This document shows, one piece after another, positions 28,698 to 33,268 of a DNA stretch of 35,031 nt. Position 1 is the stretch's first letter. Every line of letters starts with the position of its first letter. Source of the DNA: Lysobacterales bacterium (lineage in GTDB: Bacteria > Pseudomonadota > Gammaproteobacteria > Xanthomonadales > Xanthomonadaceae); contig JAFLEA010000024.1 of the NCBI GenBank assembly GCA_017302035.1, forward strand, positions 1-35,031, given 5' to 3'. The notes beneath the pieces are model-generated. The model saw only the letters and a program-made list of their open reading frames with translations. It did not search any database and was not told where the DNA came from. The translations under genes were made by a program, and so were the position numbers.

Positions 28698-29549
28698 ATG
28701 ATGCGCTGGTGGTGGAACACCCGCCCGGGCCGGACCCTGGCGCGCTACCTGGAAAGCCGCGGGGCGCTGCTGGCGCGCGGGATGTCGTTCTCGGCGGTGT
28801 TCTCGGTGCTCGCGGCGGTGTACGTGTTCTTCGCCGTGTTCGGCATCGTGTTCGAGTCTTCGAAGGCACTGCGCGACGCGGTGGTGGAGGGCGTGTCGGC
28901 GACCATCCCCGGCCTGATCGACACCGGAGCCGGCGGGGCGATCGACGTCGATGCGCTGTTCGACGTGCAAGTGCTGGGGATCAGCGGACTGCTCGCCATG
29001 CTCGCCCTGGTCTTCACCGCCAGCGGCTGGCTGCGCAGCTTCCGCGATGGGGTGCGCACCATCTTCGGCCTGCCGGAGAAGGATCGCGCCTTCCTGTTGA
29101 TGCGCCTGATCGACGTGGCGCTGGTCATCGCGCTGGGCGTGCTGATGGTGTTCTCGGCCGCGCTGTCGGTGATCGTCACCCAGGCGTTGGGGCTGGCCGA
29201 CAAGTGGATGGTCTCGATGGGTTACCAGATGTCGGACTCGTTCCTGGTGGTCGCCGGCCTGCTGCTGGCGCTGCTGATCGACGTGCTGGTGTTCTTCATG
29301 CTGTTCCGCCTGCAGTCGCGCATCCCGGTGAGCAACCGGGTGGTGCTGCGCGGCGCGTTCATGGGCGCCATTGGTTTTGGCGTGCTCAAGTACCTGGGCG
29401 CCGAACTGGCCAGCGGAGCGAGCAACAACCCGTTGATGGCCGGTTTCGCGGTGATCCTTGGCCTGATGGTCTGGTTCAAACTGGTGATGCAGTGGCTGCT
29501 GCTGACCACTGCATGGATCGCGGTCGGGCCGCGCAGCGACCGCCAGTGA
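28698..29549 (+). CDS. YihY/BrkB family membrane protein
   Basis: A 283-residue integral membrane protein of the YihY/virulence factor BrkB family with about six membrane helices. Landmarks are RGALLARGMSFSAVFSVLAAVYVFF near the start, the GLPEKDRAF loop, and the late segments VLRGAFMGAIGFGVLKYLG and ASNNPLMAGFAVILGLMVWFKL. Despite old names (RNase BN, BrkB) its function is unsettled; it is not a nuclease. Two adjacent ATG codons at 28698 and 28701 follow a GGAG site; I take the first. The gene stands between the groESL terminator and the aroG leader region. Confidence 0.88.
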   Translation: MMRWWWNTRPGRTLARYLESRGALLARGMSFSAVFSVLAAVYVFFAVFGIVFESSKALRDAVVEGVSATIPGLIDTGAGGAIDVDALFDVQVLGISGLLAMLALVFTASGWLRSFRDGVRTIFGLPEKDRAFLLMRLIDVALVIALGVLMVFSAALSVIVTQALGLADKWMVSMGYQMSDSFLVVAGLLLALLIDVLVFFMLFRLQSRIPVSNRVVLRGAFMGAIGFGVLKYLGAELASGASNNPLMAGFAVILGLMVWFKLVMQWLLLTTAWIAVGPRSDRQ

Positions 29550-29580
29550 CGCCGGCCCGCTGTCGTTGCCGCTGAAACGG

Positions 29581-29610
29581 TTGCGCGGTCTGCGGCGGGT
29601 TGCTATCAAT
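29581..29610 (+). promoter_or_regulatory. Candidate promoter of the aroG leader
   Basis: TTGCGC (29581-29586), 17 bases, then TATCAA(T) at 29604-29610, preceded by GC like the other -10 boxes. Transcription would start near 29616, almost exactly at the leader GTG. The -35 match is only three of six bases. Confidence 0.4.
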
Positions 29611-29616
29611 GGACCG

Positions 29617-29685
29617 GTGAACACGCACCGCGCCGCCTTTTATTTTGGATATTGGTTTCCGAAGCCACGGGCGGAGGAAGGGTAG
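29617..29685 (+). CDS. Aromatic-rich leader peptide of aroG
   Basis: A 22-codon open frame from GTG to TAG. After seven residues (MNTHRAA) come the consecutive codons F-Y-F-G-Y-W-F (29638-29658), so three Phe, two Tyr and one Trp in seven codons, followed by PKPRAEEG. Such a cluster is what ribosome-stalling attenuation needs. It ends 37 bases before an 11-bp terminator hairpin and 127 bases before aroG. The ribosome binding site is poor (GGA only) and the predicted transcript start coincides with the GTG, so it may be translated leaderless. An in-frame TTG at 29581 is an alternative start. No database check was possible. Confidence 0.7.
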   Translation: MNTHRAAFYFGYWFPKPRAEEG

Positions 29686-29722
29686 CGCGCATTCCGGAAG
29701 TTCCACGCCGGACACCACCCCG

Positions 29723-29751
29723 AAAGCCGCCAGCGAACCTGGCGGCTTTTT
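29723..29751 (+). terminator. Attenuator terminator upstream of aroG
   Basis: An 11-bp perfect stem (29723-29733 with 29739-29749; core AGCCGCCAG), loop CGAAC, and a run of five T at 29747-29751. It lies between the leader peptide and aroG, so transcription must pass it to reach aroG. A GGCGG at 29670-29674 inside the leader frame could pair with CCGCC at 29727-29731 as a competing stem; TCCGG/CCGGA (29693-29697 and 29708-29712) forms a further hairpin between. Confidence 0.85.
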
Positions 29752-29812
29752 CGTCGCCGGTCATCAGGCAAGACACCGACGCGACACACGACACCCCCAG
29801 GAGCATCCCGAG

Positions 29813-30889
<1,077 letters not shown>

Positions 30890-31042
30890 CCGCGGCGAGA
30901 TGCAGGCGCGCCGGCAGCGGCTGCGCCGCCCCGAGCGCGGGAGACCCCCCATCGGGCACCGGCAAGGCGCGGCCGCCAGCGGGCGTCCCGACGGTGCGTG
31001 CGGTCGTTTTCCGCCCGCCCGGGATCAGGCATGCTGGGCGCC

Positions 31043-33268
31043 ATGAATACGCAGACGCAAGCGACACGCGGTCCCCGGCACTGGTGGGCGACCTGGCTGG
31101 GCTTCTGGCGCGGCCGGCCGCGCTGGCTGCGACGCACGGTGTGGACAGTGCTGGTCGCCTATGCGGCCTACCTGGTGCTGGCCAACCTTTTCATCTACGC
31201 GATGCTGGATCGGGTGGCCAACCAGCGGCCCGATGCGTTCGAGGTGCAATGGGGTCGTGCCTACAGCCTGTTTCCCGGCCACGTGTCGGCGGACCAGGTG
31301 CGCATGCACGGGCAGACCCGGCAGATCGCCTGGGAGGTTCAGGCCGATCGCGCCAGCGGCCGGCTGGCCCTGCTGCCGCTGCTGCGCCGGGAAGTGCGCA
31401 TTCCCGAGGTGGTCGCCACCGGCGTCAGCGGCGGTGCGCGCCATACCGAGCGCAACCGCGAGCCGCCGCCGCCGCGCGAGGGGGGCTGGACGATGGTGTT
31501 CGAGCGCATCGTCAGCGACAGCGTCCGCCGCGGTTACATGGACGAGGTGGTGCTGGACGGCAACGGCCGCGCATCTTTCGGTTTTTCCAAGACGCTGCGC
31601 GGCGGGCCGATGGAGATCTTCCCGTCGAGCTTCCACTTCGACCGGGCGCGGGTGCTGGCCGATGGCGAGGAGGTATTCGAACGCGGCAGCCTGGGCGGCA
31701 ACTTCGCGATCCGGCGCCACAGCCGCGAGCAGGCCACGGGCCTGCAGAAGCTGCTGTTGACCGACGGCGAGATCGACATGGACGCGGAAGGCTCTTCGCT
31801 GCGGGTCCATACCGACGAGCAGGGACGCTTCCGCATGGAACTGGTGCCCGGCGGCGGCCGGTTGCAGGCGCAGCTGGTGATCCGCGACGGCCAGGTGCAA
31901 CCCGGCGGCAGCGTGGTGTGGAGCGCCCCGTTGCAGGGGCAGGGCGTCACCGGGACCGTACTGGACGACACTCTGCGCCTGGAGGCGCGGGTGGACGAGG
32001 ACATCGCGCTGCGCGCGCAGGTACCCAAGCGCGAGGGCGGTGCGTTGGAGCTGGATGCGGAGGTGCGCCTGCAAGGGCGGGAGATCCCGTTGCGGGTCGA
32101 CCTGCAAGCGCTGATCCCGCGCATGTCCGGGCACGTGGTCGGGCAATGGCAATTCCCGTCGCTGGCCTGGGTGCCGAAGCTGTTCAACGCGCCGGACTGG
32201 CTGCGACTGGACGGTTCGGGCGTGCTGGTGGCCGATCTGCAACTGGCCGACGGCCAGCCCGCGCCCGGCAGCCGCATCGAGTTGCCGCAGGTGAAGGCGA
32301 CCGCGCTGGTGATGGACAACCGGATCGAAGGCCAGGGCCAGGTGCGCGCCGAATTGGGCACGGCCGAATCGGGTGCGCTGGAAACCCGGATCGGGGTGCG
32401 CATGGACGGTTATTCCATCGCCGCCGCGAAGTCGCCCTCGACGCCCTACGCGCAGGGCGACAACCTGCTGCTGGACGTGACCGTGCACGGCCTGCCCGAG
32501 CGCGGCGAAGGCCTGGCCGGCACCAGTGCGCACCTGCGCTTCGCCGATGCACAGGTGCCGGACCTGCGCGTGTACAACCGCTTCCTGTCCTCGCAGGCGC
32601 GGATCGAGGGCGGCAGCGGCCTGGCCAGCGCCGACCTGCGCCTGGACGAAGGCGGCAACATCGGCCGCGGCACGGTCTCGGTGCAGGGCCGTGGCGCACG
32701 CATGTCGATGGGCGGTCGACAGCTGCAGGGCGACGTGGCGATCGACGCGCGCCTGCGCCGGGCCGATCTGCAGCAGCGCGAGTTCGTGCTGGACGGCAGC
32801 CAGGTGCGCCTGCGCAACGTGGGCTTCCGCGATGCCGACGGCCGCTCGCGCCAGGGTTGGTCGATGCGGGCGGACCTGCCCAGCGCGCGCATCGATCTGT
32901 CCGAGCCGAGTTCGGTCAACGGGACGGTCAAGGCGCAGGCCAGCGATGCCGGGTTCCTGGTCGACCTGTTCGGCGGCAACCGCAGCATGCCGGCATGGAT
33001 GGGGCGGCTGGTGGACTCGGGCCCGGTGAATGCGCAGGGACGGGTGCAGTGGAAGGGCGAGGTGCTGATCCTGGACGGCGTGGACGCGAACAACGATCGC
33101 TACCGGCTGCAGGCGCGCTTGCGCCTGGCCGGCAAGCAGCACACCGGTCAGCTGCTGGCGCAGTCGGGGCCGCTATCGATCGGCGTGGACCTGCGCGACG
33201 GGCAGCGCGACATGCGCTTCATCCGCGCCCGTGAGTGGTTCGAGTCGCATCCGCCGCTGCTGCCCTGA
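31043..33268 (+). CDS. AsmA/TamB-like anchored protein, function unknown
   Basis: A 741-residue protein with one N-terminal membrane segment (about 32-54) and a long periplasmic part made of alternating short strands with many D/G/R turns, such as LRLDEGGNIGRGTVSVQGRGARMSM and similar repeats around 480-680. This pattern resembles AsmA-like, TamB and YhdP proteins, which form groove-shaped lipid conduits between membranes; the assignment rests on pattern only. Start uncertain: ATG at 31043 is used, but ATG at 31031 with GGGA upstream is equally possible. It stands alone, 153 bases after aroG, and is followed by terminator-like hairpins. Confidence 0.65.
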   Translation: MNTQTQATRGPRHWWATWLGFWRGRPRWLRRTVWTVLVAYAAYLVLANLFIYAMLDRVANQRPDAFEVQWGRAYSLFPGHVSADQVRMHGQTRQIAWEVQADRASGRLALLPLLRREVRIPEVVATGVSGGARHTERNREPPPPREGGWTMVFERIVSDSVRRGYMDEVVLDGNGRASFGFSKTLRGGPMEIFPSSFHFDRARVLADGEEVFERGSLGGNFAIRRHSREQATGLQKLLLTDGEIDMDAEGSSLRVHTDEQGRFRMELVPGGGRLQAQLVIRDGQVQPGGSVVWSAPLQGQGVTGTVLDDTLRLEARVDEDIALRAQVPKREGGALELDAEVRLQGREIPLRVDLQALIPRMSGHVVGQWQFPSLAWVPKLFNAPDWLRLDGSGVLVADLQLADGQPAPGSRIELPQVKATALVMDNRIEGQGQVRAELGTAESGALETRIGVRMDGYSIAAAKSPSTPYAQGDNLLLDVTVHGLPERGEGLAGTSAHLRFADAQVPDLRVYNRFLSSQARIEGGSGLASADLRLDEGGNIGRGTVSVQGRGARMSMGGRQLQGDVAIDARLRRADLQQREFVLDGSQVRLRNVGFRDADGRSRQGWSMRADLPSARIDLSEPSSVNGTVKAQASDAGFLVDLFGGNRSMPAWMGRLVDSGPVNAQGRVQWKGEVLILDGVDANNDRYRLQARLRLAGKQHTGQLLAQSGPLSIGVDLRDGQRDMRFIRAREWFESHPPLLP

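Follow-up and report, generated by a model that had tools for sequence, protein, structure and literature searches.

The 35,031-nucleotide stretch of DNA analysed here (contig JAFLEA010000024.1 of a Lysobacterales bacterium, hereafter the window) carries, upstream of aroG, an element that is very probably a ribosome-mediated transcription attenuator of this gene, as judged from its sequence and that of its relatives. A short leader ORF with clustered Phe, Tyr and Trp codons is followed by a predicted terminator hairpin, the 5' arm of which can pair either with its 3' arm or with a strand inside the leader ORF, the two pairings being mutually exclusive. Judging from the codons of the leader, a shortage of any single aromatic amino acid would derepress aroG. 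The features of the region, all on the + strand, are as follows.

29581..29609, +, predicted promoter: TTGCGC at 29581-29586, 17 bases, then the -10 hexamer TATCAA at 29604-29609, preceded by TGC
29617..29685, +, leader ORF: GTG start (ATG at the aligned position in most relatives), 22 codons plus TAG, probably leaderless
29633..29637, +, region 1: CCGCC, tentative protector pairing with region 2, suggested weakly by the fold and by constrained folding
29638..29658, +, regulatory codons Phe-Tyr-Phe-Gly-Tyr-Trp-Phe: TTT TAT TTT GGA TAT TGG TTT
29670..29674, +, region 2: antiterminator strand GGCGG, inside the leader ORF, identical to the core of the terminator 3' arm
29723..29733, +, region 3: terminator 5' arm, core CCGCC at 29727-29731, pairing with region 2 or region 4
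29739..29751, +, region 4: terminator 3' arm and T-run, core GGCGG at 29741-29745, T-run at 29747-29751
29799..29803, +, AGGAG, likely ribosome binding site of aroG, from the sequence
29813..30889, +, aroG: type I DAHP synthase, 358 amino acids plus stop (TIGR00034, 522.6 bits against a cut-off of 173.2; PF00793)

The leader region of aroG

Direct reading of the sequence places the leader ORF between GTG 29617-29619 and TAG 29683-29685, with 22 sense codons encoding VNTHRAAFYFGYWFPKPRAEEG. An earlier, sequence-only reading of this DNA had described a 22-codon leader with F-Y-F-G-Y-W-F in a row, and this description stands. Attenuators are recognised, among other features, by a short leader ORF in which codons for end products of the pathway stand in a run. 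A six-frame scan of the whole window yields a single site with at least six aromatic codons in seven; such a run is found in none of 30 dinucleotide shuffles of the window, and in one of 2000 shuffles of 29551-29812 on the + strand. The GTG start, unusual for a leaderless ORF, is shared by 7 of the 9 sampled genomes of the window's genus (29617-29619 in the window; L082-L085, L087, L090). Within the set of 57 family-level regions defined below, GTG occurs eight times in total, L133 being the only case outside the genus.

The spacing of the -10 box suggests a transcription start at about 29616 in the window, and the leader ORF looks leaderless, from sequence, in the window's family and in the alphaproteobacteria. 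A TG.TATCAA-type box, sought with a lenient pattern, ends 7-9 bases upstream of the leader start in all 57 family-level regions, and a stricter -10 rule places it 7-9 bases before the start in 53 of 56. No Shine-Dalgarno-like motif is seen before any of 56 family-level or 12 alphaproteobacterial leaders. Among the 62 leaders of the remaining lineages, two have such a motif and 41 lack a -10-like box. According to the excerpts available of the respective papers, leaderless leader ORFs are known for trpL of Sinorhizobium meliloti (PMC10117765), in Streptomyces (PMC8079986) and for ilvB of C. diphtheriae (PMC5784534).

The hairpin (29723-29749) begins 37 bases past the leader stop and has a stem of 11 pairs, AAAGCCGCCAG (29723-29733) with CTGGCGGCTTT (29739-29749), closed by the loop CGAAC. 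An 11-bp hairpin with five T at this distance had been part of the earlier reading and is indeed present, its T-run (29747-29751) overlapping the stem by three bases. Since three of the five T lie within the 11 pairs, the terminator is better read as eight GC-rich pairs followed by T5. A predicted intrinsic terminator between the leader ORF and the first structural gene is a second feature of attenuators. A consensus scan of 29400-29900, which expects the -10 box to have T as its sixth base and the stem to be followed by five T within 8 bases, found neither promoter nor terminator. In a 37-row alignment of elements, 97.8% of the cells of the terminator helix are paired, as against 95.1 in shuffles, 15 cells are changed on both sides (5.0 in shuffles) and all 37 sequences form the five core pairs.

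Region 2 lies just past the last aromatic codon, starting 14 bases from the first base of that codon. Its GGCGG equals the core of the terminator 3' arm and is complementary to the CCGCC of the 5' arm. A competing strand, missing from the sequence-only reading, is thus located in the leader ORF, where it is able to pair with the terminator 5' arm.

Proposed mechanism and folding

RNA polymerase would start at the leader GTG or within a base or two of it, and a ribosome would translate the leaderless leader ORF behind the polymerase. When Phe-, Tyr- and Trp-tRNA are all charged, the ribosome should reach TAG and cover the GGCGG of region 2; the CCGCC of region 3 would then pair with the GGCGG of region 4, and the resulting hairpin with its T-run would stop transcription before aroG. 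A shortfall of any one of these charged tRNAs would be expected to stall the ribosome within FYFGYWF. Region 2, by its 14-base distance from the last aromatic codon, would sit just outside the stalled ribosome and, being free, could capture region 3 before region 4 is made, letting the polymerase read into aroG.

Single-sequence folding of the window element gives a structure no better than that of shuffles (z -0.55; 55 of 200 shuffles equal it); the case is therefore a comparative one. Constrained folding was run on 90 elements, 54 family-level and 36 others, with stalls placed at the first and last aromatic codons; the ribosome was represented by a block that reached at most 12 bases from the stalled codon's first base, or from -18 to +12 around the stop. 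With region 4 absent, the probability of pairing between regions 2 and 3, P(2:3), is 0.00 in the free window element, 0.98 with a stall at the first aromatic codon, 1.00 with a stall at the last and 0.00 with the ribosome at the stop. P(2:3) exceeds 0.5 in 35 of the 54 family-level elements when free, in 50 and 52 with a stall at the first and last codon, and in 30 with the ribosome at the stop; the corresponding figures for the 36 other elements are 20, 32, 36 and 13. These models suggest that the fold by itself is not always able to separate the stalled from the unstalled state. Once region 4 is included, the terminator prevails: in the window in every state modelled (P 1.0), among the family-level elements in 54 of 54 and among the 36 others in 33 or 34. 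The switch must therefore be kinetic. A ribosome at the stop codon of the window leader would cover region 2; in 63 of the 90 elements, region 2 starts 25 bases ahead of the stop, and a ribosome at the stop would leave it uncovered. A third feature of attenuators, an antiterminator that uses the terminator 5' arm and would be freed by the predicted stalling, is indicated by modelling together with the comparative evidence below.

A hairpin between regions 1 and 2 is present in the window's fold. Pairing of regions 1 and 2 beats at least 95 of 100 shuffles in just 17 of 118 leaders, the window (20 of 100 shuffles as good) not being among them, and a general protector hairpin is not supported by this count. 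The protector hairpin is the weak part of the model.

Distribution of the element

The AroG protein search returned 589 loci, of which the best 80 were taken. In a sample of 198 genomes of the window's family, a type I aroG match (E<=1e-120, a threshold that weaker type I genes would escape) is found in 52. A covariance model built from the 37 aligned elements (R1), and thus trained partly on these family sequences, detects the element at E<=1e-5 in 52 of the 198 genomes, identical to the aroG set when the two lists are compared row by row by eye. The R1 match lies 19-59 bases upstream of the aroG match in each of them. A terminator conserved in the absence of the leader would have spoken against attenuation, as the earlier reading had pointed out; leader and terminator both precede aroG in 52 of the 52 family genomes with a type I match.

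The upstream stretches of these 52 genomes were pooled with seven loci (L002-L006, L008, L024) from Xanthomonas, Stenotrophomonas, Dyella, Rhodanobacter and one organism named Pseudomonas boreopolis, and removal of two duplicates left 57 distinct family-level regions, the window included; as near-copies remain, they represent fewer than 57 independent cases. In all 57, an aromatic run lies in an ORF of the type FYFWYY.FP.PLAEEG.RSP. Beyond the family, the leader reads FYFYFFWHLKPLADREG in Burkholderia and Caballeronia, with close forms in Paraburkholderia, FF.GYFYFS.S.KAVE in Oxalobacteraceae and SYFWYFSYDSSLAAGG in Bradyrhizobium, and related forms precede aroG in Devosia, Methylosinus and Leisingera. 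The element is common to alpha-, beta-type and gammaproteobacterial lineages.

In the genome of the window, R1 has a single full-length match, before aroG, and three other matches at E<=1 that are terminator-sized fragments. At class level, R1 finds 17 of 369 genomes at E<=0.01; seven fall below 1e-6, and in all seven the match precedes aroG. Among eight class-search loci examined (L178, L179 and L182-L184 being left out), L172-L174 precede aroG, and at the weak matches L175, L176, L177, L180 and L181 neither an aromatic leader nor, among the downstream ORFs listed, a DAHP synthase is seen. In the order of genome G303, which would be Burkholderiales since locus L192 carries the Burkholderia leader, 43 of 200 genomes match at E<=1e-5. 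The 29 new loci from this order (L189-L217) all contain a DAHP synthase ORF by the motif GPCS[IL]HD, and 27 have at least five aromatics in ten codons; the ORF picked in L208 is unlike a leader, L204 reaches the threshold with another upstream window and L217 has four aromatics.

No copy was recognised before aroG of enterobacteria and of most other gammaproteobacteria in the sample, one of 26 class-level loci (L139) being positive. None of the aroG upstream regions rated negative or weak combines at least five aromatics with a start codon. Short Phe-rich frames lie upstream of enterobacterial aroG (L067, L072, L077), for example MACFFWFSGLFRKAVK in L072, which has no terminator by pattern; they are taken as chance.

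Conservation of the competing strand

Leaders were defined by at least five aromatics in ten codons together with ATG or GTG, which gave a set of 131 (101 and 30 from two collections); L217 and L199, the latter with four aromatics in another upstream window, were left out. Seven of the 131 have no terminator by pattern (L048, L050, L054, L057, L061, L072, L208). Both parts of the element are nevertheless visible by eye in L048 and L054, and L050, L057, L061 and L072 are probably chance aromatic runs. GGCGG is missing from six of the 124 terminator-bearing leaders (L009, L010, L051, L133, L134, L200), and 118 of the 131 have both a recognised terminator and a GGCGG wholly within the leader ORF. 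Counted from the first base of the last aromatic codon, GGCGG starts at 8-20 bases in these 118 and at exactly 14 in 81 of them.

The reading frame of GGCGG is the usual one in 104 of the 118 leaders and one of the other two in 8 and 6 (for example L025 against L015, and L062, L201, L207, L211); in the usual frame, the preceding codon is of ten kinds (CTG, CCG, CAG, ACG, AAG, TTG, ATG, CGG, GAG and GCG). GGCGG being kept across three frames, it is the peptide that varies and the RNA that stays. Conservation of the tail PLAEEG for its protein sequence was rejected, as GGCGG is retained while the frame changes. In two Massilia leaders, L015 and L025, a frame shift past the aromatic run turns SSPLAVE into SSPWRWNSGG while the DNA GGCGGTGGA is unchanged, a pair that, as far as sequence can tell, is a natural experiment for constraint at the RNA level.

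Covariation of the competing stem, proposed as a check by the earlier reading, is seen at the edge base and does not extend to the stem as a whole. The edge base of regions 2, 3 and 4 is T-A-T in 72 of the 118 leaders and C-G-C in 10, and the association of T/C with A/G has a Fisher p of 1.5e-5, a statistic that ignores kinship; the base pairs between regions 2 and 3 in 87 and is mismatched in 31. In the 37-row alignment, 83.1% of the cells of the 2:3 pairing are paired, against 82.4% in shuffles, the core hardly varying, and the covariation score does not rise above shuffles, being matched by 192 of 500. Four cells are changed on both sides, against 1.6 in shuffles, a value reached by 20 of 500. 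For 88 of 124 leaders, the duplex of leader tail and arm 3 surpasses at least 95 of 100 shuffles. In the window, the same duplex is no better than chance, 45 of 100 shuffled tails being as good (128 of 200 in a first version); its antiterminator is weak because region 2 reads CGGGCGG and not CTGGCGG.

Codon choice and the amino acids presumably sensed

All five Phe and Tyr codons of the window run end in T, whereas four genes of the window contain 4 TTT against 54 TTC and 2 TAT against 22 TAC. Across the 131 leaders, Phe is encoded by TTT in 73% of cases, compared to 15% in the downstream aroG, and Tyr by TAT in 38%, compared to 25%. The share of T-ending Phe/Tyr codons is higher in the leader than in its own aroG in 121 cases and lower in 9. 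In a window of 71% GC, T-ending codons may prevent pairing of the run, or they may slow its reading.

Among the 118 leaders of all lineages, 94 contain Phe, Tyr and Trp, 23 Phe and Tyr, and one Phe alone; all three occur within the run itself in 92. It is conceivable, if on the doubtful side, that the attenuator in practice senses one or two aromatics, most likely Phe as AroR of C. glutamicum does, the other codons being passengers. The last aromatic codon of the 131 leaders, Phe in 85, Tyr in 34 and Trp in 12, would fit such a sensor, as would the 23 leaders of 118 without Trp and the single one with Phe alone; in the available part of its description, the C. glutamicum aroF operon is acted on by Phe and not by Tyr shortage (PMC11802643). 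Against it, Trp is retained in 94 of the 118 leaders and accompanies Phe and Tyr in 56 of the 57 family-level ones (L116 lacks it), and in the constrained folds a stall at either the first or the last aromatic codon leaves region 2 free, P(2:3) then exceeding 0.5 in 50 and 52, respectively, of the 54 family-level elements.

An additional action in trans of the terminated leader RNA, of the peptide or of both, in the manner of rnTrpL/peTrpL of Sinorhizobium, is unlikely. The attenuator RNA, with a predicted length of about 135 nt when terminated and predicted to be leaderless, resembles rnTrpL as far as the excerpted source describes it (PMC10117765), and the peptide tail P.PLAEEG.RSP is well conserved in the window's family; RNA pairing can, however, explain the tail, and the frame differs in 14 of the 118 leaders, all of them from other lineages. 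That the hairpin is a constitutive terminator of the upstream BrkB-family gene (PF03631), which is on the same strand and ends at 29549, 173 bases before the hairpin, and that the leader encodes a functional small protein with aroG left unregulated, is highly improbable, as aroG has the hairpin in front of it in all 52 family genomes with a type I match and again in distant lineages, and as the GGCGG of the element is kept in three frames at the expense of the peptide sequence, which is at odds with a functional peptide.

The downstream gene

The DAHP synthase gene that the sequence-only reading had placed downstream of the element is the type I enzyme listed above. Its description there as the shared first enzyme needs a correction, as it is not the sole first enzyme: a type II DAHP synthase is also encoded. 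Besides one KDO8P synthase, the genome of the window encodes two DAHP synthases, a type I AroG preceded by the leader and a type II enzyme lacking it. The type II gene (G000:C71:30830-32134, L136) is preceded by an ORF that by eye resembles DsbB, and no aromatic leader is found in the 400 bases upstream of it. A type II enzyme is encoded in all 60 family genomes searched for it and a type I enzyme in 52 of 198. By this distribution, type II may be the housekeeping enzyme and the attenuated AroG one that is called up on shortage. Behind aroG, an ORF of 756 amino acids (30998-33268) matches no Pfam family at E<=0.001.

The proposed attenuator of aroG may be read more broadly as an OR gate, in which a leaderless, TTT-rich leader turns on the accessory type I enzyme upon any shortage of Phe, Tyr or Trp beside a type II housekeeping enzyme, the module being common to Xanthomonas relatives, Burkholderiales and Rhizobiales and passed on with aroG; this broader reading is evenly poised between acceptance and doubt. 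E. coli splits the aromatic control of the entry step among separately regulated isozymes. If the reading is true, signals from Phe, Tyr and Trp would all be combined by one attenuator where their shared pathway begins. The element also offers a sensor part for aromatic starvation and a candidate RNA family.

Relation to known attenuators

ilvGMEDA and thrABC are textbook attenuators responding to several amino acids; their leaders ilvL and thrL read several amino acids, and neither precedes a DAHP synthase gene. The trpL leader of S. meliloti reads Trp only. The statement in the earlier reading that attenuators usually sense one amino acid needs qualifying, multi-amino-acid kinds being not unusual: the aroF leader of C. 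glutamicum carries Phe-Tyr-Phe, of which Phe is effective whereas Tyr availability is without effect, according to the portions available of its descriptions (PMC11802643, PMC4046766). Like the window, this aroR-aroF system has a DAHP synthase gene preceded by a leader ORF that contains aromatic codons, and it works by ribosome-mediated attenuation, as is proposed here (PMC11802643, PMC4046766); compared by description, it differs in that the excerpt mentions Phe-Tyr-Phe without Trp, in that Tyr is ineffective and in that the host is an actinobacterium (PMC11802643). The uORFC-13-1 motif of Acholeplasma, as excerpted, likewise consists of a predicted uORF and terminator before aroF, a DAHP synthase gene, but the source mentions at least one Phe codon and a ribosome binding site, and it concerns another lineage and a prediction only (PMC8632094). 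trpL/rnTrpL of S. meliloti shares the leaderless leader ORF and the attenuator RNA with the window (PMC10117765, PMC7298713), whereas its peptide, of 14 amino acids in the excerpt, precedes trpE (PMC10117765). E. coli pheL-pheA, pheST and trpL share the logic of leader, antiterminator and terminator with the aroG element; pheL and trpL differ from it in reading one amino acid each and in having no DAHP synthase gene downstream, as far as the partial source goes (PMC11802643).

As attenuators of DAHP synthase genes are known in Corynebacterium, the one proposed for aroG is not a new kind. All 4227 families of Rfam release 15 gave no match at gathering score in the window and at the loci of 12 relatives; the best hits below threshold are RNAI (E 0.35) and P26 (E 0.52). 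The literature search gave no description of the element before a proteobacterial aroG among the matches listed, and an earlier description is possible. With this reservation, the element is a widespread variant of a classic type of switch, new in proteobacterial aroG among the matches listed.

Phylogeny of AroG

In a tree of AroG made by a quick method (187 rows), the genes with a leader cluster, with 15 changes against a shuffled mean of 51.6. The leader label required five aromatics in ten codons, L050, L057, L061 and L072 were set to 'none' by hand, and rows marked 'none' include some with a shorter run or another id (L033, L046, L130, L139, L199, L217), so that the 15 changes overstate leader switching. 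In a set of 73 rows, the alphaproteobacterial AroG falls beside that of the window's family and its relatives (SH-aLRT 98). The Xanthomonas relatives share their group in the AroG tree with Bradyrhizobium, Mesorhizobium, Devosia and Leisingera. This placement suggests that aroG may have been transferred between classes together with its attenuator.
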